A stretch of DNA of 64,000 nucleotides from assembly GCA_036405135.1 (NCBI GenBank), contig DASWYF010000013.1:186001-250000 (forward strand), given 5' to 3'. Of this stretch, positions 37,540 to 62,018 are shown one piece after another. Every line of letters starts with the position of its first letter. The stretch's first letter is position 1. The position numbers were made by a program, and so were the translations under genes. Under the pieces are notes generated by a model. The model saw only the letters and a list, made by a program, of their open reading frames with translations, made no database searches and was not told the origin of the DNA. The stretch is from Verrucomicrobiia bacterium. GTDB taxonomy: Bacteria > Verrucomicrobiota > Verrucomicrobiia > Limisphaerales > JAEYXS01.

Positions 37540-40083
37540 ATGCGTATCCTTAAGTCTCTCATCCTGTCGCTGACGTTCTTGTGCTGCGCCTTGTCCACCC
37601 GCGCCAACGTCGCCACCGGCAAAGCCGCCACGCCCGCTTCCAATCTAACAGTGCCTGCTGGCTTCAAAGCCGAACTCGTCCGCTCCGCCTTGCCCGTGGA
37701 AGGCTCATGGGTTTGCATGACCATTGATGACAAAAGCCGCCTCATCATCTCACCGCAAGACGTTCTGCGCCGCGATGGAGCAGGGAAGGTGGGGGAAGGC
37801 GGGCTGCTGCGCATGACGTTGGGTAGCGATGGCAACGTCACCCTCGTCGAACGCATCGAACTCCCCGTTGGCAGCGCGATGGGCCTGCTCTACGCCTTCA
37901 ATAGCCTCTACGTCAGCGGTGAAGGCGCCGACGGCACCGGCCTCTATCGTCTCACCGATACGAATCAGGATGATAAATACGACAAGGTCGAATTCCTGAA
38001 ACGCTTCGAAGGCACCTTCCGCCCCAATGCCAATGGTGAACATGGCCCGCACGCCATCGTGCTCGGCCTGGATAATCACCTCTACATCATCAATGGCAAC
38101 GAAGTGAAACCACCATCACCGCTTAGCCTCACGTCTCCGCATAAGAACTATGATGAAGATCAATTGTTACCGCAGTTGGTCTGGCCCGCGAATTATACCT
38201 GGGCGAATGGCCCAGCGTCTGGTGGCTATGTGGTGCGCACGGATAAAGACGGCAAAGAGTGGACACTCATTGCCGGTGGCTTACGCAATGCCTACGACCT
38301 CGCCTTCAATCGCGATGGCGAGATGTTCACCTTTGATAGCGACATGGATTGGGACGATGGCGCGCCGTGGTATCGCCCCACGCGCGTGAATCATCTTGTC
38401 TCCGGCGGCGAATACGGCTGGCGCAAAGGCTCCGGCAAATGGCCCGATCATTATCCCGATAGTGTGCGCTCCACCTTGGACATCGGCCGCAGTTCACCCA
38501 CTGGCGTGAAGTTCGGCTACGATGCCGCCTTCCCGCGCAATTACCGCATGGCGCTCTATCTCTGCGATTGGGCCTTCGGCACCATCTACGCCGTGCAATT
38601 CACGCCGAGCGGCGCGAGCTACAAGGCGAAAGCTGAACCCTTCGTCACCGGCCGTCCACTGAACGTCACGGATATGGAATTCGGCAAAGATGGCGCGATG
38701 TATTTCATCACTGGCGGACGCGGCACACAATCCGGTCTCTATCGTGTGACTTATACGGAGCCCGTTCCGAAAGTCCTGCCCAAGTGGGGCATGCCCGAAC
38801 AAGATGGCAGCAAACAACGCGCGCTCCGTCGCGAGCTCGAAGCCCTCCATGGTAAGGCTGATCCGAAATGCATTGAGACCCTCTGGCCGCATCTGGATAG
38901 CGGTGATCGCACCATCCGCTACGCCGCCCGCATCGCCCTCGAATGGCAGGATCCGAAACTATGGCAATCGCGTGCGCTGAGTGAAACCAATGCGAACGCC
39001 GGTCTCGCCGCCTTGCTCGCACTCGCCCGCACTACGACGAAAGACATTCAACCCGATTTGCTGAAAGCCCTCGCCAAGTGGCCGCTCGATACGCTCAGCG
39101 AAGAACAGAAGCTGGATAAACTACGCGTCATCGAAGTGAGTTTCATCCGCCAGGGCAAACCCGCTGAAGCACTGCGCAATCTCGCCATCGAAAAACTCGG
39201 TCGCCAATATCCTTCCGCCAGCGATGCTTATAATCGTGAACTCTGCAGCCTGCTCGTTTATCTCGAAGCACCCGATGTGGTGGAGAAAACCGTGAAGCTG
39301 CTACTCTCCTCTAAATCACAAGAAGAACAGATTCACTACGCCTTCGCGCTGCGCTTGATGAAGCCGGGTTGGAATGACGCGCTACGCAAACAATACTTCG
39401 CCTGGTTCCCGCAAGCCGCTGCGAACTATCACGGCAGCAGCAAAGTCCTCAGCTTCCTCGCCGACATCCGCACCGATGCCGTGAAGACCTTGAGCGATGT
39501 CGAACAAGTTTCCCTGAAAGCATTAGTGGAAGCACCACTCGTCACTGCTTCAATTCCCGTCAATATTCCCACAAAAGATTTTGTGAAAGAATGGAAGCTC
39601 GAAGAGCTCGTACCGCATCTCGATGCGGTTTCGCGTGGACGCTCATTTGAAAAAGGGAAAGCCGCGTATCTCGCCTCGCAATGCGTCATGTGTCATCGCC
39701 TCGGAAGCATCGGTGGGGCAGTGGGACCAGACATCACTGCGGCAGGCAGCCGTTACACGCGCTACGATCTGCTGGAAGCGATTGTGAATCCTTCGAAAGT
39801 AGTTCCCGATATGTTCCAGAACGTCACCGTATTCACGCGCGATGGTGAAGATCACACAGGCCGTATTCTTTCTGAAGATGCGAACAAAGTCGTGTTGCAA
39901 CCGAATCCACTCACTCCGGGAAAAATTGAAATCCTCAAAACGAACATCACGAAACAGGAACGCTCAAAACTTTCACCGATGCCGGAAGGACTCATCAACG
40001 TCCTCACGCGCGAAGAAATTCTCGATCTGCTTGCCTACATCGAGAGTGCTGGCAGTCAGAACTATCCCTCGTTTCAGAAGTGA
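37540..40083 (+). CDS. PVC-type beta-propeller/HEAT/c-type haem protein
   Basis: 847 residues, secreted (MRILKSLILSLTFLCCALSTRA). Residues ~40-410 form a six-bladed beta-propeller (glucose-dehydrogenase/NHL-like: GLYRLTDTNQDDKYDKVEFL, HGPHAIVLGLDNHLYIINGN, GGLRNAYDLAFNRDGEMFTFDSDMDWD). About 430-690 are helical repeats. The C-terminal haem domain carries C715-V-M-C718-H719 with downstream GPDITAAGSRYTRYDLLEAIVNPSKVV, the PVC-specific haem-binding domain. Probably a periplasmic redox enzyme acting on sugars or alcohols; substrate unknown. Last ordinary chromosomal gene before the element. Confidence 0.9.
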   Translation: MRILKSLILSLTFLCCALSTRANVATGKAATPASNLTVPAGFKAELVRSALPVEGSWVCMTIDDKSRLIISPQDVLRRDGAGKVGEGGLLRMTLGSDGNVTLVERIELPVGSAMGLLYAFNSLYVSGEGADGTGLYRLTDTNQDDKYDKVEFLKRFEGTFRPNANGEHGPHAIVLGLDNHLYIINGNEVKPPSPLSLTSPHKNYDEDQLLPQLVWPANYTWANGPASGGYVVRTDKDGKEWTLIAGGLRNAYDLAFNRDGEMFTFDSDMDWDDGAPWYRPTRVNHLVSGGEYGWRKGSGKWPDHYPDSVRSTLDIGRSSPTGVKFGYDAAFPRNYRMALYLCDWAFGTIYAVQFTPSGASYKAKAEPFVTGRPLNVTDMEFGKDGAMYFITGGRGTQSGLYRVTYTEPVPKVLPKWGMPEQDGSKQRALRRELEALHGKADPKCIETLWPHLDSGDRTIRYAARIALEWQDPKLWQSRALSETNANAGLAALLALARTTTKDIQPDLLKALAKWPLDTLSEEQKLDKLRVIEVSFIRQGKPAEALRNLAIEKLGRQYPSASDAYNRELCSLLVYLEAPDVVEKTVKLLLSSKSQEEQIHYAFALRLMKPGWNDALRKQYFAWFPQAAANYHGSSKVLSFLADIRTDAVKTLSDVEQVSLKALVEAPLVTASIPVNIPTKDFVKEWKLEELVPHLDAVSRGRSFEKGKAAYLASQCVMCHRLGSIGGAVGPDITAAGSRYTRYDLLEAIVNPSKVVPDMFQNVTVFTRDGEDHTGRILSEDANKVVLQPNPLTPGKIEILKTNITKQERSKLSPMPEGLINVLTREEILDLLAYIESAGSQNYPSFQK

Positions 40084-40357: not shown

Positions 40358-43300
40358 ATGAACAAATATCAGCAGGCAAAAGCGAAGCTACCACTTCGCA
40401 AATTGATGGAGCAGTATGGCGATGCTCCGGGGAATGGAAGCTGGGCTTCCATGCCGCGTTGTCCCTTCTGCGGGAAGAAGGGAAGTGCCGGGGTTTTTGA
40501 GTCCAAGGGCACGGAGTTCTTCAAATGCTTCAAGACGGATTGTCCTTCCGGTACGGCGGGTGAGAACAATGCCGTCTCTGAAATCGGTTATGTCGCGATC
40601 AAAGAAAGCCTCAGTGCCGAGGCGGCGAAGGGCGAGGCCGCACCGGCCTACAAGCGTTATCTTGAGCTGGCGGGGTTATGGGAGGAGCCGAAGGCCAAGA
40701 CGGCCAAGCCAGGTGCCGCGAAGTTCACCGAAGAGCAGGTGACGGAAGCGCTCGAGATCATCCGTTCGGAGCAGAAGGCGAGCGTGTCGTTGCTGCAGCG
40801 CAGGATGAAGCTAGGTTACACGCTCTGTGCGATGATCATGGATGAACTGGAACGGCGGCATGTGGTCGGCCCGTCGAAGGGTTCGGAGCCGCGTGACATC
40901 CTGCTCGAGAATCCAGTCATCAAAGACAATTTGCCGGAAGGTGTTCCTGCGCCTACTCCGGTTCCGCCAGAGGCAGCGTCGTCTGGTAGTGGCGACGCTG
41001 CCTCATCTGGCGTGAGAAAAGAGGACAAGGCACCGTTGCAAAGCAGCATGCCGCGTCCGTTGGATGTGGTGGATGCGGGCAGTGTGCCGCCGGAGGATGT
41101 GGTGCCGGATGCGGAAGGCGGCGAGGGAGATGATCAGGGCTTGGTGGTGTTGCGGCGGTTCTACAGCCAGCTTGTATTGCGACCAGAGGATCTGGAATCG
41201 ATCATGGCCAAGCGCGGACTCTCGGAGAGCGCGTGTGTGTCCTACGGATTCCGCAGCAACGGGCAGAGCAATCTGGACATCCTGCACGGTTTGCGGGGTG
41301 AGTTCCCGGAAGAAGCTTTGATAGCGAGCGGGCTGTTCCTTGCTGATGAACGGCAGTATGATCTCAAGCCCAACTCGCAATTCTACGGTTACGGAATGGC
41401 GGGCAAGGATGCGCAGGGCAATGAGGTGTGGGAATGGAACAATCCAATCCTGATACCTTATTGGGATGCCAGTGGTCGTCTAATCTATCTGCGACCGCAC
41501 AAGGGCGGCGTCAAAGGTTTTGGTTCGCGCCTGTATGTGGCGCGAGCGGGCGGTGTGATGGACAACCGCCGGTTTGAAACGCTCGTCATCTGTGAGGGTG
41601 AGTTCAAGGCCGATGCCGGTGATTTTGTTTTCAGCGGGAGCAAGGTGGGTTGGTGTGCGTTGCCGGGGATATCGCAGTCGAAGAACCCGGCGGTGTGGAG
41701 TGCGTTGATCGCGTATATCCGTGAGGTGAATCCCAAGCATGTCATCGTGGGGTTCGACTCGGAAGAGAAGGGAGATCCGGCACTGGCGAGTTTCAAGCCG
41801 GACAAGAAGAAGCGTTACGATGCGATCATCTGGGCGCGTTATCTGGCGGAGAAGCTGGCGCGTGACGGTTGGGACGGGCGCGTGTGTCTGCTGCCGAAAG
41901 AGTGGCGCGATGAGAAGGGCAAGGCGGACTGGGACGGTGTGCTTGCCCGCTGGCTGAAAGAGGAGAAGCCGCTGGAACAGATCCGCCACGAGTGGTCCGG
42001 TCTTTTGCGCGTGTCGCCACGGGCGGCGGATTTCCGGCAGCGTGGCCTGTTCGACAATGAAGATGAGCGCATCATCCGCAACGGGTTGATGCAGCTCTGG
42101 TATAAACCGGCGCTGCCTCATGCGGGCGACCGGGAAAGACGACTGGCGCAAAAGCTGAAACGGCTGGCGAACACCACGTTGAAATACACACCGGGAGTAG
42201 AGTGGCTGGCGGAGAAGTATCATGAAGTGGTGGGCTGGTATTACACGCTCAAGGATGTGCCGGAGAAGCGACGTATCTCGTTGCAAAAGGAACTGGTCAA
42301 GGCACGCAAGGAAGAGCGGTGGGATGAGGTTTGGTTTCTGGATCTCCAGCTCGAGGGCATCCCGGCCCAAGTGGCGGATTTCCGCATGGACCTGCGGCAT
42401 GTGTTGGTGAGGTCGAACGGCAAGCGCGATCGTATCTTGGACATCCGTAATGCGCAGGGGGAGAAAGTGCGCCGGGCGGCGCTCGATGCGAGGAGCATGG
42501 TGCGTCCTTCGGAATTCCGCGAGTGGCTGGGCAACACGAAGAACCTGACATGGATGGCGGGCGAACGAGAGCTGCAGGCGTTGCAACGTGATCTGAACCA
42601 TGCGGCGTTGGATCTGGAAGTGCATGAGGTTCCGTTCTACGGGTTCCACGAGGCCAGCGGTGTCTGGTTCGCGGGTGATTGTGCGGTGACGCCCGAAGGT
42701 GATTTCCTGCGGCCTGATAATGACGGTGTGTTCTGGTATGACGGGCTGGGTTATCTCGTCCCGGACAAGGACGAGGAAAATGAAACCTTCCGACAGAAGG
42801 CTCCGACATGGCGACCGGAGTTGAACATCGCCGAGATGAAATTCGAATACTCGGGATTGAGCCTGTTTCCGGGAGAAGATCCAGACAGCCTTGGTGACTG
42901 GCCAGCTACACAGAAGCTGGGCCGCTACTTCCGGGAATTTACGGAACGGATGCGCGAGACGCTGGGTGGTTATGAATCTTACATGGCGGTGGGCATGATG
43001 CTCGCGTATGCGGCGGCACCGGAAATCTTCCGGCAGTATGGCGGGTTCCCCGGTTTGTGGGTTCACGGCCAGATGGGGCAGGGCAAGACGAGCATCACGC
43101 GCTGGCTGATGGACATGCATGGCTTCTCGCTCAAGGAAGGGTTGAACCTGCGCACGGCTTGTACGCAAGTGGGCATGCTCATCGCGGCCCAGCAATACTC
43201 CAACCTTGGCGTGTGGTTTGAAGAATTTCGCAATGGAACGGTGGACAGCGGGCGAGAAGGTGTGCTGCATGCGTCATTCAACCGCGACCGGCAATCGAAG

Positions 43301-44242
43301 AAAACGGCTGACGGCCGGCAGCGTCAGATCCGGTCGTCATTTCTGGTGACGGGTGAATCCACCTGCTCGGATGCGGCTACGCGTGATCGTTACGCGCATG
43401 TGTTCGTGAGTGAGCCGCGGCGCAAGGGCCAGCATCGCGAATGGTTTGAACGCAACCGCGACCGGCTGGTGCTGTTCTTCCGGGAGGTCCTGCGAAACCG
43501 GAAAGAGTTTGCGGCCTCGGTCTTGCGCGAGATGAAAAGCTGGATGGCGTTGCCGGATCTGAAATCGCTAAAGGACCGTCCACGCTTGGTGCATGGTGTG
43601 GCGCATGCCGGATTCCGGGCAGCAGTGGCCATGTTCCAAAGCCATGCGCCGGATGAGATGATGGACTTCCGCAACTTCCTGTTCGGCCATTCAGTGACGG
43701 CCACCGAGGATGTGCAGAGCCGGGTGAACATCAATGTGTTCATGCAGCATATCATCAGTGCCTATCAGCGGGGGGTGTTCGGGGAAACGGAGAATGACAA
43801 GAAGCGTTACTTCAAGGTGAAGACGACGCCGGTGGCGCATCCGCCCAATGCACCGAAACAAGGGGCGTGGATGAACTATCACCTGTATCTGAATCATCTG
43901 CTGGTGGTGGATACGTTGTCGGAGCATCTGCGCCGATCGGGCCGGACAGTGCCGCTGGAGATCAGCGACTTGCGCGACCAGCTCGCGCAGAATGAATTCT
44001 GGGTGGGGCCTTCCACCCAGCGGTTTGCCGGGAAAAACTCCAAGTGCTGGGAGATCGACTTAGACCGGTTCCCGGATCTGGGTTACAAGTTTGTCGATGA
44101 GGAGGAACTGGAGGCCAGCCGTTGGCGAGATTCGGCCCACGGGCCTATGCGCGTGGTGTCGGATGACTGGGTAGATCCACGCAAGGGCTCGCTCTTCTCG
44201 ATCGTGGAGGAGTTGTCAAACGACCAGCAGACTTTGGCCTGA
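40358..44242 (+). CDS. Primase-helicase with embedded FtsK-gamma-like winged helix
   Basis: 1294 residues, replication protein of the element. CHC2-type zinc finger with Cys35, Cys38, Cys57 and Cys62. Residues 123-183 closely resemble the FtsK gamma winged helix (FTEEQVTEALEIIRSEQ, KASVSLLQRRMKLGYTLCAM, IMDELERRHVVGPSKGSEPR). A Pro/Ser linker (195-260) follows. A TOPRIM-like core has Glu413 in LVICEGEFKADAG and Asp467 in VGFDSEE. The C-terminal P-loop ATPase has WVHGQMGQGKTS (about 901-912), LGVWFEEFRN as Walker B-like (950-959) and SSFLVTGEST. Order primase-then-helicase resembles phage primase-helicases with a DUF927-like ATPase, but it is much longer. Start overlaps the TGA of a 20-codon leader frame. 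Confidence 0.85.
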   Translation: MNKYQQAKAKLPLRKLMEQYGDAPGNGSWASMPRCPFCGKKGSAGVFESKGTEFFKCFKTDCPSGTAGENNAVSEIGYVAIKESLSAEAAKGEAAPAYKRYLELAGLWEEPKAKTAKPGAAKFTEEQVTEALEIIRSEQKASVSLLQRRMKLGYTLCAMIMDELERRHVVGPSKGSEPRDILLENPVIKDNLPEGVPAPTPVPPEAASSGSGDAASSGVRKEDKAPLQSSMPRPLDVVDAGSVPPEDVVPDAEGGEGDDQGLVVLRRFYSQLVLRPEDLESIMAKRGLSESACVSYGFRSNGQSNLDILHGLRGEFPEEALIASGLFLADERQYDLKPNSQFYGYGMAGKDAQGNEVWEWNNPILIPYWDASGRLIYLRPHKGGVKGFGSRLYVARAGGVMDNRRFETLVICEGEFKADAGDFVFSGSKVGWCALPGISQSKNPAVWSALIAYIREVNPKHVIVGFDSEEKGDPALASFKPDKKKRYDAIIWARYLAEKLARDGWDGRVCLLPKEWRDEKGKADWDGVLARWLKEEKPLEQIRHEWSGLLRVSPRAADFRQRGLFDNEDERIIRNGLMQLWYKPALPHAGDRERRLAQKLKRLANTTLKYTPGVEWLAEKYHEVVGWYYTLKDVPEKRRISLQKELVKARKEERWDEVWFLDLQLEGIPAQVADFRMDLRHVLVRSNGKRDRILDIRNAQGEKVRRAALDARSMVRPSEFREWLGNTKNLTWMAGERELQALQRDLNHAALDLEVHEVPFYGFHEASGVWFAGDCAVTPEGDFLRPDNDGVFWYDGLGYLVPDKDEENETFRQKAPTWRPELNIAEMKFEYSGLSLFPGEDPDSLGDWPATQKLGRYFREFTERMRETLGGYESYMAVGMMLAYAAAPEIFRQYGGFPGLWVHGQMGQGKTSITRWLMDMHGFSLKEGLNLRTACTQVGMLIAAQQYSNLGVWFEEFRNGTVDSGREGVLHASFNRDRQSKKTADGRQRQIRSSFLVTGESTCSDAATRDRYAHVFVSEPRRKGQHREWFERNRDRLVLFFREVLRNRKEFAASVLREMKSWMALPDLKSLKDRPRLVHGVAHAGFRAAVAMFQSHAPDEMMDFRNFLFGHSVTATEDVQSRVNINVFMQHIISAYQRGVFGETENDKKRYFKVKTTPVAHPPNAPKQGAWMNYHLYLNHLLVVDTLSEHLRRSGRTVPLEISDLRDQLAQNEFWVGPSTQRFAGKNSKCWEIDLDRFPDLGYKFVDEEELEASRWRDSAHGPMRVVSDDWVDPRKGSLFSIVEELSNDQQTLA

Positions 44243-47562: not shown

Positions 47563-47814
47563 AAAAAGACCATTGAACAGAAGGTGCAGGTGGGGCCGCG
47601 GACGTCTTTGGTGGAGACGGAGATGGTTTGCACGGGATGTGTGCATTTGAAGATCCGTCTGGAGCGTCCGGCGCGCAAGGATGAGGAGGCGGAGTGGAAC
47701 TACGAATGCCTGCATCCTGATGTGGAGGTGGCGTGGATGGGGATCAGTGCGGAACCGCCGAGCTGTCCGGGGCGTTGTCCGGAGAGGAAATCGAACAAGA
47801 AGGCGACGCCATGA
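47560..47814 (+). CDS. Small Cys-rich hypothetical protein
   Basis: 84 residues. MVCTGCVHLKIRLER (CxxC), YECLHPDVE and SCPGRCPERK suggest a small zinc-binding fold. Start is the last ATG of an ACACAGAT repeat. The stop overlaps the ASCH gene start (ATGA). Confidence 0.6.
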   Translation: MKKTIEQKVQVGPRTSLVETEMVCTGCVHLKIRLERPARKDEEAEWNYECLHPDVEVAWMGISAEPPSCPGRCPERKSNKKATP

Positions 47815-48254
47815 GCGAGATATTGGAAATACGTTTTGCTTTGAGCGTGCGGCAGCCTTGGGCGTGGTTGATCGTGAACGGTTTCAAGGATGTCGAGAAT
47901 CGGCTGTGGCAGACGTTCATGCGCGGGCCGCGTTTCATCCACACCGGGAAGGTGATGAAGGAGGAGGAATACAACGACTGCTATTTCTTCTTGGAAGAAC
48001 ACTTCCCGCATATCCGGCTGCCGCGGGCGCAGGACCTGCCGTTGGGTGGGATCGTGGGCATCGCCAGCATCACTGATTGTGTCACCCGATCGAACTCAAA
48101 ATGGTTCGTGGGTGATTACGGTTTTTTGATGGAGGACCAGCAGCCGTGTGAATTCATCCCGTGCAAGGGGGAGAAGGGATTCTTCCGTCCGTGTCATGAG
48201 GGCGGAAGTTATGTGACGGCGAGTGATCTGAAATTTTTGAAGAAGGCGGCGTAA
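47811..48254 (+). CDS. ASCH-domain protein
   Basis: 147 residues from ATG 47811. ALSVRQPWAWLIVNGFKDVENRLWQTFMRGPRFIHTGK is the ASCH signature (SVRQPWA...K.VENR). LPLGGIVGIASITDCV follows. The ASCH domain, related to PUA, binds RNA and in some members cleaves modified nucleosides. Common in phages. The N-terminal extension of the open frame is read-through of the preceding gene. Confidence 0.85.
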   Translation: MSEILEIRFALSVRQPWAWLIVNGFKDVENRLWQTFMRGPRFIHTGKVMKEEEYNDCYFFLEEHFPHIRLPRAQDLPLGGIVGIASITDCVTRSNSKWFVGDYGFLMEDQQPCEFIPCKGEKGFFRPCHEGGSYVTASDLKFLKKAA

Positions 48255-48939: not shown

Positions 48940-48955
48940 ATTGAGAAATAATTTT

Positions 48956-50029
48956 ATGGCGAAATATACGAAGATCCAGTGGTGTCACTACACGTTGAAC
49001 TTCCGCATCGGTTGCGCGAAGAAGTCTATCTGTTGCGCGAGGTGTTATGCGGCGTTGATGGACCGTCGCCGCTTCAGCAAGACGTTGCCGGGTTGCAGCA
49101 AGGAGAAACCGATATCGCATTGGGGCGCGAATGCTCCACGCCATGTGGTGAGCGCGCAGACGACGAAGGAAGTTTACCGGTGGAATGCGTATGCGGAGAC
49201 ACATCCGTGGACTTGTTCGGGGTGCAGTGAGGAGAAGGATGAGATGTTTGGTTACACGGGAGATGATGCGCTGAAGTTTGACTACGTGTGCCCCAAGTGC
49301 CACTCGTCACTCGATAGCAGTCCGCGTCGGGTGTTCGTGGGTTCGATGTTCGATTGGGCGGAAGAGGTCTATACGACCGAGGAAAGGGACGCGTGGTTTG
49401 AGGTGATGGAGAAATGCACCCACCTGCGGTTCATGCTGCTGACCAAGCGAGGGAAGGTGATGCGCGAGTACCTGACGTATCGCTATGAAGGCGGTCCGGT
49501 GCCGGGTCACTTGTGGATCGGGTGGAGCTGGCAGCCGGATTTCCCGGCGGAGATTGATGATCTGCTGGCGGTGAAGGCAAAGGTGCGGTTTGTAAGCGCC
49601 GAGCCTTTGCTGGGGCCGTTAGGTGAACCGATGGGTGAGGCGCGCAAGGGGTTGAGTGCGGCACAAATCGAGCATGAGCAGATGAAGTGGCTAGAGAAAA
49701 TCTACCAGGTGGAGTTGTTGATATTGGGTGGAGAATCGGGTGATGAGAATGAAGATCCGCGTATGTGTCATGAGGATTGGTTGCGTTGGGCTGTGGCGGG
49801 GGCATTTGCGGCGTGCGTGAAAGTGTTCGTCAAGCAGATGGGGAGCTACGCGGTGCGCGATGATTCGGCTGTTATACCGGAGGCGAGTGAGGATGTGGTG
49901 GATCCAGCGGACATCGCGAGATGGGAGTTCAACCGGCGCAATCATCGGGTGCGTTACAAGCATCCAAAGGGAGGCGATATCAACGAGTGGCCGGAGGAGT
50001 TGCAGGTGCAGGAGATGCCGGGTTTTTAA
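48956..50029 (+). CDS. Phage Gp37/Gp68-family (DUF5131) protein with zinc-ribbon insertion
   Basis: 357 residues from ATG 48956. TKIQWCHYTLNFRIGCAKKSICCARCYA has the C-x6-C-x2-C cluster-type motif of DUF5131, a family related to radical-SAM enzymes and frequent in phages. RRVFVGSMFDW, FMLLTKRG and WIGWS...AEPLLG are further family blocks. An additional CSGCSEEK...YVCPKCHSS (CxxC/CxxC, about 92-121) sits between the first motif and RRVFVGSMFDW and looks like a zinc ribbon. Biochemical function unknown. Confidence 0.83.
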   Translation: MAKYTKIQWCHYTLNFRIGCAKKSICCARCYAALMDRRRFSKTLPGCSKEKPISHWGANAPRHVVSAQTTKEVYRWNAYAETHPWTCSGCSEEKDEMFGYTGDDALKFDYVCPKCHSSLDSSPRRVFVGSMFDWAEEVYTTEERDAWFEVMEKCTHLRFMLLTKRGKVMREYLTYRYEGGPVPGHLWIGWSWQPDFPAEIDDLLAVKAKVRFVSAEPLLGPLGEPMGEARKGLSAAQIEHEQMKWLEKIYQVELLILGGESGDENEDPRMCHEDWLRWAVAGAFAACVKVFVKQMGSYAVRDDSAVIPEASEDVVDPADIARWEFNRRNHRVRYKHPKGGDINEWPEELQVQEMPGF

Positions 50030-55905: not shown

Positions 55906-56124
55906 ATGGGGCGAAAGAAGAGCAGGCAGGAGCGGGAAGATGATGAGGCGAACCTGTTCGCGATGTGCCTGCTGATGCCGGAAGAGATGGTGAAAGAAGA
56001 GATCGCCAAGCTTGGTGTGTTCGATGTGAACGATGACAGGAAGATGAAGAAGCTGGCGAAGATTTTTGAAGTGTCGGAAACGATGATGGCCTTGCGGATT
56101 GCGCAGATATTTGAATTCCCATGA
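55906..56124 (+). CDS. Orphan C-terminal fragment of ImmA/IrrE-type peptidase
   Basis: 72 residues. EREDDEANLFAMCLLMPEEMVKEEIAKLGVFDVNDDRKMKKLAKIFEVSETMMALRIAQI is the part that follows the catalytic helix in ImmA/IrrE proteins: the third metal-ligand Glu region (EREANxFAxxLLMP) and the helix LAKxFxVSxxAMxxRL. The HExxH segment is absent and there is no room for it upstream; the gene starts 2 bp after the previous stop with a good context. Loss of catalysis is therefore certain if this is the whole protein. Stop overlaps the next ATG (ATGA). Confidence 0.7.
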   Translation: MGRKKSRQEREDDEANLFAMCLLMPEEMVKEEIAKLGVFDVNDDRKMKKLAKIFEVSETMMALRIAQIFEFP

Positions 56125-56561
56125 ACCAAGCAGAAGAAAATTACGGCAAGCTGTTCAAAGCGGCAGAGCGGAAGAATTACGACAACCTGCTATTTGAAGC
56201 GACTGTCAAGATGCTGCTCCCTTGCGGTTCTGTGATTGAGGCGAAATTAGGCAGGGCTACCGTACGAGGTGAAGTGATCGGTTATCAGTTCAACGGGACG
56301 GATGTGATTATCCGTAATTTAAAGACTGAGAAACGCCGTGATGTGCATGTGGGTTATTACGGCATCGGATCGGTTAAAATTATCTCGGTGCCGGAAAAGG
56401 TTAAGCTGGATTTGGAGGCGTGGTGGAAGGAATTGCAACCGATGTTTCGCATTCCGTTTGGGGATGCGAACGAAGCGGATGTGCGGGATTTCCAATGGGC
56501 CTATGATCAGGGGCTTTCTCCGATCGAGACGTTGGTGCAACTGCTGGAGGATGAACGATGA
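56121..56561 (+). CDS. Hypothetical protein
   Basis: 146 residues. Beta-rich first half (KMLLPCGSVIEAKLGRATVRGEVIGYQFNGTDVIIRNLKTEKRRDVHVGYYGIGSVKII) like a small barrel, then WWKELQPMFRIPFGDANEADVRDFQWAYDQGLSPIETLVQLLEDE. Coupled on both sides by ATGA overlaps to the ImmA fragment and the TrpF-like gene. Confidence 0.55.
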   Translation: MNQAEENYGKLFKAAERKNYDNLLFEATVKMLLPCGSVIEAKLGRATVRGEVIGYQFNGTDVIIRNLKTEKRRDVHVGYYGIGSVKIISVPEKVKLDLEAWWKELQPMFRIPFGDANEADVRDFQWAYDQGLSPIETLVQLLEDER

Positions 56562-57406
56562 AACCGAGAATCACGTTGACGGGGGTGGATGAGAGCACCT
56601 CTGCGGACACCTTGTTCCGGTTAGCGGCGCATGCGGAGATTGGATTTCTGTTCACACTCAATCCGGAAGGGCGCAAGCGGTATCCCTCGTTGGACTGGAT
56701 CCGTGAAAATGCGATGAACGCAACATGGGTGGCTTTGCACGTCTGCGGGCGTGAAGCGCGCCAAATGCTGGTGGATCCACCGGACAACTGTTCCATGCTC
56801 TTCCAGCGGTTTCAGAGAATTCAGGTCAACGGCCAGGTGAGTGAGGAAGAGTTGAAGCGGATCTGTGCGGCTTATCCGCTCACTGAGATCATCACCCAGC
56901 ACAAGGGTAATGACGCGTTGTTAAAGGTGCCTTTGCCTAACCATTCCATTCTGGTGGATGCCAGCGGTGGAAGAGGAATCAGGCCGGCTGAATGGACTAA
57001 GCTGGAGACGTATAAGAAGACGGGATATGCGGGTGGTCTGGGCGCGGAAAATATCTGTGATGAATGGGCTAAAATCCGTCCCCTTGCCCGTATAGGTTGC
57101 TGGTTGGATATGGAGTCCAAACTCCGTGATGCGAACGATTCCTTTAGTGAGGAGCGAGCGGTTGCTGTGTTGAAAGCTTTAAATTACGAGGTGGATTTTC
57201 CGTTGGCTTTATCAGCTATGCCCCTGTTGAAGCTCAGCAGAGAGGAGTGGTTAAAGCGGTGTGCGGCCAGATTGATGGAGCGTGCTGCGTTGAATGCTGC
57301 TGATGCGATGGGGATTGCTGAATCGAATCTGGAAAGTGATCCGTCTGCGCTGGAGGAAAGCCCGGAGGACATTGCGGATGAGGAGTTGTCCCGGTGGGGA
57401 GAGTGA
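56558..57406 (+). CDS. TrpF-like TIM-barrel protein
   Basis: 282 residues. Residues 1-205 follow the phosphoribosylanthranilate isomerase pattern: beta1 PRITLTGVDESTSADTLFR, the phosphate-site loops D134-ASGGRG-140 and A158-GGLGAENI, and D184-MESKLRD matching the 'DVSSGVE' strand. The catalytic Cys of beta1 (KICG) is replaced by Thr8. A ~75-residue C-terminal helical tail (MPLLKLSREEWLKRCAARLMERAALNAADAMG) is extra. Enzymatic PRAI activity is unlikely; it may bind a phosphorylated ligand or NAD-like compound (inference). No trp genes nearby. Overlaps the previous gene by ATGA. Confidence 0.6.
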   Translation: MKPRITLTGVDESTSADTLFRLAAHAEIGFLFTLNPEGRKRYPSLDWIRENAMNATWVALHVCGREARQMLVDPPDNCSMLFQRFQRIQVNGQVSEEELKRICAAYPLTEIITQHKGNDALLKVPLPNHSILVDASGGRGIRPAEWTKLETYKKTGYAGGLGAENICDEWAKIRPLARIGCWLDMESKLRDANDSFSEERAVAVLKALNYEVDFPLALSAMPLLKLSREEWLKRCAARLMERAALNAADAMGIAESNLESDPSALEESPEDIADEELSRWGE

Positions 57407-57651: not shown

Positions 57652-58527
57652 ATGAAAAAATACGTTTTGTATCACAAGGGGTGCATGGATGGGTTTGGGG
57701 CGGCGTTGTGTGCCTGGCTCAAGTTCGGGGATGAGGCGACGTATATCCCGTGCAGTAATGATGACAAGGTGCTGCCGGAGATGGAGGACGGGAGCGAGGT
57801 TTATATCTTGGATTTTTCTTTCTCGCGTCAGGTGCTACTGGATTTGGCTTTTCGGATGAAGTCGTTGCTGGTGTTGGATCATCATAAGACGGCGCGTGAG
57901 GCGTTACAGGGTTTGGATTTTGCGTGGTTCAGTAAAGAGAACAGCGGAGCGGTGATGGCGTGGAGGCATTTCCATAAATATCATCCGATTCCTTTGCTGA
58001 TCCAATACATCGAGGACCGTGATCTTTGGGCGTGGAAGCTGCCGAACAGTCGCGGGGTCAATGCGGTGTTGGGGACTTATCCGATGGAGTTTCCCGTGTG
58101 GCACAGCCTGTTGACTGGTATGCATTTCAGTTCCAGGAAGCTTGAAGGAGAGGGGGAAGTTGCGTGGCGGATGATCGAGCAGGCGGTGAAGCGGCAGTGT
58201 GGACAGAGTTCTGTGCATGTGGCGAGGTTTGCGCCGGGTGAGAAAAAGATCGAGCTGATGGCGGTCACACCGGCTTGCCCGTCGCTGGTGGCGAAGAGTT
58301 TTGGGATTCATTTCGTGCCGGTGGTGAACGCGACTGCCTACGTGGATGAGGTGGCGGAAGAACTGATCCGGCAGTATGAGTGGGCTCCGTTCGTGGGGGT
58401 GTATCAGCAGCGGGCGAATGGCAAGACGAAGTGGAGCCTGCGGTCGCGGGAGGGGTTTGATTGTCTGCCGATCGCGGAGGCGTTTGGTGGGGGAGGGCAT
58501 GAGCGGGCGTGTGGGTTTATCGCATAG
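57652..58527 (+). CDS. DHH-family phosphoesterase
   Basis: 291 residues. YHKGCMDGFGAALCAW (motif I, D13), ILDFSF (D54), VLDHHKTA (DHH, 76-78), then a D in YIEDRDLWAW, and AFGGGGHERACGF (DHHA1 motif, about 277-288). This is the DHH/DHHA1 fold of exopolyphosphatases, nanoRNases and RecJ relatives that hydrolyse phosphodiesters or phosphoanhydrides using Mn. Compact size fits nanoRNase/oligonucleotide phosphatase types; substrate unknown. Frequent in phages. Confidence 0.88.
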   Translation: MKKYVLYHKGCMDGFGAALCAWLKFGDEATYIPCSNDDKVLPEMEDGSEVYILDFSFSRQVLLDLAFRMKSLLVLDHHKTAREALQGLDFAWFSKENSGAVMAWRHFHKYHPIPLLIQYIEDRDLWAWKLPNSRGVNAVLGTYPMEFPVWHSLLTGMHFSSRKLEGEGEVAWRMIEQAVKRQCGQSSVHVARFAPGEKKIELMAVTPACPSLVAKSFGIHFVPVVNATAYVDEVAEELIRQYEWAPFVGVYQQRANGKTKWSLRSREGFDCLPIAEAFGGGGHERACGFIA

Positions 58528-61277: not shown

Positions 61278-62018
61278 ATGAACGAAAAGAATGTAGCGGT
61301 GATCATCCCGTGTTATCAGCAAGTGCATCATCTGAAAAGGTGCCTTGCTTCCGTGATTCCCCAGCTCGGGGAAGGGGATGAACTGTTTCTCTGCATCGAC
61401 AGTGCGGACGAGACGTTGGGAGATCCAGAAGACCGGCAGAAGGTGAACCGGTTGCTCGAGACGGCCCGTGAGTTGAGTCCGGCGAAGGTCAAGCTGGTGG
61501 AGAGTCCGTATCGGATGGGGGTTTCCCTGATGCGCGACTTGGGGGCGAGAGAGGCCAAGGCGCCATGGTTGAAGTTTTTGGATGCGGACGATTTTCTTGC
61601 GCCGCTGGCGTTGAACTTTTTCAGGGCGGTGAAGCTGCAGGAGGCGACGCGGGTGTTCTATGGCCAGCAGGTGATGGTGAGGGACAACGTGCCGATGGAA
61701 GTGCGCCTGTCTGATATGACGGTGATCGAGCGGCGCAATCCGTTGCTGGTGTGCCCGACGTTCATCCGTCGTGATGCGTTTGAGGAGGTGGGGCGGTTTG
61801 ATGGTGAAATCGAATTTGAAGAGGACTGGGATCTGTGGCTGCGGGTCTGGCAGACGTGGGGATTGGGCGTGGTGCAATCGTTCCCGGTGCCCATAGGCTA
61901 TTACTGCATCCACAAAGAGGAGCGGGAGCAGAAGGAAAAGGAGCGGTGTCGCACGACGCGAGGCATGGATGTGCGGCAGTGGTTCGCGATGAAGTATAAG
62001 ATCCAGCCGCTGAGATAA
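61278..62018 (+). CDS. GT2-family glycosyltransferase
   Basis: 246 residues, GT-A fold. VAVIIPCYQQVHHLKRCLASVIPQL is the family N-terminus and the DXD motif is LKFLDADDF (D102, D104). The acceptor region is FIRRDAFEEVGRFDGEIEFEEDWDLWLRVWQTWG. No membrane segments, so cytoplasmic. It follows the DNA methyltransferase by 10 bp and has no cell-envelope neighbours, so DNA or phage-structure glycosylation is conceivable (inference). Confidence 0.85.
   Translation: MNEKNVAVIIPCYQQVHHLKRCLASVIPQLGEGDELFLCIDSADETLGDPEDRQKVNRLLETARELSPAKVKLVESPYRMGVSLMRDLGAREAKAPWLKFLDADDFLAPLALNFFRAVKLQEATRVFYGQQVMVRDNVPMEVRLSDMTVIERRNPLLVCPTFIRRDAFEEVGRFDGEIEFEEDWDLWLRVWQTWGLGVVQSFPVPIGYYCIHKEEREQKEKERCRTTRGMDVRQWFAMKYKIQPLR

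Follow-up and report, generated by a model that had tools for sequence, protein, structure and literature searches.

What is a relative of the tryptophan enzyme TrpF doing in a prophage, with no tryptophan genes for company and without the cysteine that TrpF uses in catalysis? The question is raised by a 282-amino acid coding sequence, taken from the list of open reading frames and supported by homologous relatives, at positions 56558-57406 on the plus strand of a 64,000-nucleotide stretch of DNA (hereafter the window), which spans bases 186001-250000 of a 357.5-kb contig from a Verrucomicrobiia bacterium. The initial annotation, made from the letters alone, saw in this gene a TrpF-like TIM barrel with an intact phosphoribose site and changed chemistry, and proposed a new ligand, perhaps a nucleotide or NAD-related metabolite used in counter-defence.

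A TrpF-like barrel gene within a prophage

The ATG of the barrel gene is preceded at a distance of 7 nucleotides by a GGAGG ribosome-binding site (56546-56550; this and all other features of the gene and its immediate neighbors are on the plus strand). The gene overlaps by four base pairs (ATGA) with an upstream open reading frame (56121-56561) that belongs to no Pfam family, and a DHH/DHHA1 phosphoesterase-like gene (57652-58527) lies downstream. A chromosomal gene stops at position 40083, to the left of a prophage whose left part (40358-64000, plus strand) begins with a DNA primase gene and carries genes for ASCH, DUF5131, DHH phosphoesterase, DNA methylase and glycosyltransferase proteins. 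The element runs past the window edge, where genes for a tail tape-measure protein, a C5 methyltransferase and a serine integrase are found. From this setting we place the barrel gene in the accessory part of the prophage, which agrees with its earlier assignment to a mobile element. No tryptophan genes are nearby, as had also been noted, and the host carries its own single trpF, intact and with the KICG motif, on a separate contig.

By conventional membership scores, the window protein is not recognized as a TrpF. Its Pfam PRAI score is 11.8 bits, under the gathering cut-off of 22.7, its NCBIfam match to TrpF is likewise below threshold, and a PHROGs search returned no match. However, a few relatives (two were counted) do exceed the Pfam cut-off, and profile-profile alignment of the family against 13 real TrpFs gives a probability of 96.3% in local mode and 97.9% over full length. 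AlphaFold2, run with 73 family sequences, models residues 1-210 (56558-57187) with confidence as a barrel of eight strands (pLDDT of about 96), and the eight best Foldseek matches to this model in the PDB are all TrpFs, led by 1v5x (E=3.5e-8; TM score of 0.72 on the target). Profile alignments, structural ranks and the relatives that pass the Pfam cut-off together indicate that the likeness to TrpF goes beyond chance, and fold prediction and profile alignment thus agree on the TrpF-like TIM barrel that was originally proposed. A Foldseek search of a viral library gave no good match for the barrel model. We conclude that the window protein is a relative of TrpF that falls short of TrpF membership and is not itself a TrpF.

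The barrel is followed in the window protein by a C-terminal tail (residues 211-282; 57188-57403) that is modeled as low-confidence helices with block pLDDT values of 54-75. This tail of about 75 residues had been singled out earlier as an added feature, and it is indeed present, but it is peculiar to this copy rather than common to the family. Close relatives terminate at or soon after the barrel, three of them (L016, L018 and L019) directly after it, and the one exception (L020) carries a long extension that is unrelated.

Residues kept, lost and gained across an unnamed family

More than 160 relatives of the window protein are encoded by phages, huge phages, megaplasmids and chromosomes. 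Protein searches matched two huge-phage genomes (635 and 735 kb), one Microcystis phage and 15 large plasmids. Scans of viral and genome contigs with the single protein found nothing, whereas alignment-based scans of the same contigs located relatives on at least 118 viral contigs, 80 of which were fetched, and on 80 bacterial genome contigs. Among 388 genomes of the host phylum, only the one that carries the window has a full-length member. Ten weaker matches in the phylum were set aside, as those with a recognizable open reading frame are true TrpFs, several of them beside trpB (the best match, G016, lies outside that set). The open-licence literature yielded no earlier description of the family, nor anything on PRAI with auxiliary metabolic genes or on DUF5131 with phage. 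These proteins are so far unnamed, widespread relatives of TrpF, and their recognition opens a way into the function of a gene that counts as ‘unknown’ in huge phages and megaplasmids. One Polaromonas plasmid protein (L015:4902-5741) resembles the barrel over its first 70 or so residues, beyond which its sequence is HTH/MerR-like; it is probably a recombined remnant.

Conservation was counted over 169 usable family sequences and reaches at least 95% at 24 positions. These include T8, D11, E27, H61, C63, R87, Q89, N91, Q114, D134, S136, D184, E186 and R190, whose conservation forms the pattern of an active site, along with G9, L31, G64, L132, G138, G140, G156, G159, G160 and W182. In TrpF, Asp126 is the general acid, a cysteine is the general base, and Arg36 forms a salt bridge with Glu184 (PMC9088769). 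The mapping of TrpF residues onto the family is more certain for strands 6-8 than for strands 1-5, and side-chain placement is derived from sequence and strand register.

Much of the TrpF site (PF00697, PRAI; Thermotoga maritima 1NSJ and Thermus 1V5X) is retained. The strand-6 general acid is represented by Asp134, which aligns with the aspartate matching T. maritima D126 and is present in 169 of 169 members, and the SGGxG loop after this strand is also kept (56957-56977, including Asp134). Likewise common to TrpF and the family are the AGGLG phosphate-binding motif of strand 7 (residues 158-162; 57029-57043), the arginine after strand 2 (Arg41, equivalent to Arg36 of TrpF; 56678-56680), the glutamine of strand 4 and the aspartate of strand 8, which maps to Asp184.

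Other positions have changed. The cysteine of the strand-1 KICG motif aligns with Thr8 (56579-56581), and threonine occupies this position in 162 of the 169 members, including the window copy, so that the substitution first noticed in a single sequence is real. The QxH motif of strand 4 maps to Q89xN91, with asparagine in place of histidine. In strand 8, the DVSSGVE of TrpF is replaced by D184-x-E186-xxx-R190 (57107-57127), such that SSGVE has become ExxxR, with E186 and R190 conserved and DMESKLR as the reading in the window copy. Finally, the family has a new conserved pair, His61-x-Cys63, at the end of strand 3 (56738-56746), where His61 is found in all 169 members and Cys63 in 167, and where TrpF has valine at the corresponding positions.

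If the protein were a divergent but genuine TrpF that isomerizes phosphoribosylanthranilate, its fold, D134, R41 and the strand-7 motif would be as expected. We nonetheless consider this exceedingly improbable, given the near-universal loss of the catalytic cysteine, the altered strand-8 loop, the missed Pfam cut-off, the trpF gene that the host already has, and a setting that lacks any trp genes. Rather, since the acid is retained and a new conserved nucleophile/base pair has appeared, we infer an enzyme with altered chemistry or an altered substrate, not a decayed TrpF. TrpF and HisA are textbook models of enzyme function change, and a relocated cysteine in a natural TrpF-related family with more than 160 members would offer a ready case of active-site migration.

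HisA has an aspartate at the strand-1 position where this family has threonine. Although HisA and PriA share the general barrel and are phosphoribosyl isomerases by type of chemistry (PMC9088769), they are absent from the significant PDB fold matches of the window model. The phosphoribose site, described earlier as intact, is only partly so. The DASGGRG, AGGLGAEN and DMES segments named at that time are all present, and the loops of strands 6 and 7 are kept, but in strand 8 the SSGVE loop has given way to ExxxR, and this alteration makes phosphate binding uncertain.

A chromosomal clade in nucleoside-catabolism loci

A lead on the substrate comes from one chromosomal clade of 32 proteobacterial members (tree support of 1.0). 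A gene for a nucleoside-catabolism enzyme or transporter is present in 31 of its 32 loci, versus 0 of 43 other genome loci (Fisher p=3e-20, a value that ignores relatedness), and the remaining clade locus, on a short contig, shows only a LacI regulator. Pfam families at these loci include inosine-uridine (IU) nucleoside hydrolase, PfkB kinase, adenosine deaminase and ADP-ribosylglycohydrolase, together with NupC or a BMP-type ABC importer, purine permease, and GntR/LacI regulators. In many cases the gene for NupC, the nucleoside hydrolase, the PfkB kinase or the purine permease directly adjoins or overlaps the barrel gene. A profile of this clade aligns with TrpF at 95.5% probability, and a second AlphaFold2 model, made for a clade member (pLDDT of 94.7), again has TrpFs as its top PDB matches. 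Proteins of this sister clade are a constant component of nucleoside-catabolism loci in Proteobacteria, and their recognition exposes a missing, unannotated part of such loci in Duganella, Collimonas, Caulobacter, Rhizobium and others. One open reading frame that appeared to fuse the barrel to a nucleoside hydrolase (L172) was rejected as an artefact of masked bases (a run of X) and a frame change.

Members of this clade carry characteristic changes, with S33 replaced by D, position 48 by R, G137 by F and A158 by S. Arg41, which the mobile copies keep, is leucine or proline in most clade members (leucine in 27 of 32). A polar core that remains constant while positions 33, 41, 48, 137 and 158 vary is the pattern expected if the same chemistry acts on different ligands, and we read the clade substitutions as suggesting another ligand on a common chemistry. 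A simple ribose-5-phosphate isomerase is less likely, because 10 of the 12 clade-bearing genomes examined already have RpiA and such an activity would be redundant there; the true substrate may thus be more unusual than ribose 5-phosphate.

These observations favor the hypothesis, to which we assign a probability of roughly 0.55, that the family comprises enzymes whose substrate, a ribosyl or phosphoribosyl compound, arises as nucleosides or nucleotides are turned over, with D134 as the acid and C63/H61 or E186 as the base. According to this model, a TrpF-like ancestral barrel would have retained its general-acid aspartate and the ligand loops of strands 6 and 7, exchanged the general-base cysteine of strand 1 for threonine, acquired Cys63 and His61 at the catalytic end of strand 3, and rebuilt the strand-8 loop around a conserved glutamate and arginine. 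The substrate would be a ribosyl or ribose 5-phosphate-bearing compound released in nucleoside or nucleotide turnover, and the simplest reaction would be ring opening followed by aldose-ketose isomerization, as in TrpF and HisA. Our choice of exact substrate is a guess.

The same gene neighborhoods could also accommodate a phosphoribosyl N-glycosidase or lyase, which would open a nucleoside 5'-phosphate or phosphoribosyl-base and cleave it to ribose 5-phosphate and base, in concert with the nucleoside hydrolases and PfkB kinases that co-occur with the barrel. We regard this alternative as unlikely, although certain members appear to speak for it. On an Azonexus plasmid and in Rhodocyclaceae (L009:9986-11593 and L183), the barrel runs on into a C-terminal extension, and the Azonexus version of this extension bears a weak resemblance to nucleoside 2-deoxyribosyltransferase. 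However, this match (E=0.018) does not reach the cut-off, a PDB sequence search with the extension came back empty, and the apparent fusion is a weak hint at most. We know of no TrpF-fold enzyme with such an activity.

The association with nucleoside loci bears as well on the earlier proposal of a new ligand, which for this barrel is probable. A link to nucleosides or nucleotides is upheld by the loci in which the sister clade is embedded, but the suggestion of an NAD-related ligand is weak, its counterpart in the data being the ADP-ribosylglycohydrolase gene of four chromosomal clade loci (L145, L137, L158 and L159). In the Rhizobium example (L145:955-2019), this gene lies within a nucleoside-import and -catabolism locus.

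Neighborhoods of the phage and plasmid copies

Unlike its sister clade, the window copy is not part of a nucleoside-catabolism operon. Seven marker nucleoside enzymes and transporters were sought near 94 phage and plasmid members and in the window prophage, and none was found. The context is confined to the chromosomal clade, and so the extension of a nucleoside function to the mobile copies, which share with the window copy the retention of Arg41, is indirect.

No gene partner is conserved among the phage and plasmid copies. Their 245 near-neighbor genes include, by Pfam family, RNA ligase (3), HAD_SAK_2 (3), Thg1 and RlaP, which would be consistent with a place in phage nucleic-acid repair or modification metabolism, such as RNA-repair ligation or base modification, in which case the nucleoside operon would be a secondary application. 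This reading appears quite unlikely, as the Pfam content of these neighbors differs little from that of 125 far genes from the same loci, among which RNA ligase and the poly(A)-polymerase head also occur, such that the RNA-repair association shows no convincing excess. A link to DUF5131 was also rejected: clustering placed this family within about 8 kb in 9 loci, mostly kilobases away and in no operon.

The role in counter-defence that had been envisaged finds no backing, since PADLOC has no match for the barrel protein and no defence partners are recognized among the families of the 245 near neighbors. The same results bear on the idea of a non-catalytic sponge or sensor that binds a ribosyl signal molecule to oppose host defence. 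Spread over phages and plasmids and the loss of the TrpF base would suit such a binder, but the conserved set of acid, histidine, cysteine, glutamate and arginine speaks for catalysis and the chromosomal clade is metabolic, which leaves this idea very doubtful.

We return to catalysis on ribosyl compounds when considering what mobile elements might gain. Copies in phages and megaplasmids could recycle or detoxify ribosyl compounds during the breakdown of host nucleic acids, although this role is again a guess. The fuller account, in which a TrpF-like barrel with a rebuilt strand-8 loop, and with its cysteine shifted to strand 3 from its former place on strand 1, would perform an undescribed ribose or phosphoribose step in nucleoside breakdown that phages and megaplasmids use to exploit nucleosides or nucleotides released in the infected host, is put forward tentatively, at somewhat less than even odds.

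Several other genes of the window prophage deserve mention. Its primase gene (40358-44242) encodes a 1294-amino acid protein that unusually combines a phage DNA primase-like sequence with, close to the N-terminus, an FtsK gamma domain (PF09397; E=3e-18). An ASCH-domain gene is located at 47811-48254, and ASCH-like genes also lie near some relatives of the barrel gene, for example on a Teredinibacter plasmid. The DUF5131 gene (48941-50029) matched two PADLOC candidate models. A family-2 glycosyltransferase gene (61278-62018), confirmed by Pfam, accompanies the DNA methylases of the prophage, and three further open reading frames of this element, at 71848-73329, 95235-96575 and 97302-98591 in coordinates extended beyond the window, look glycosyltransferase-like by eye.
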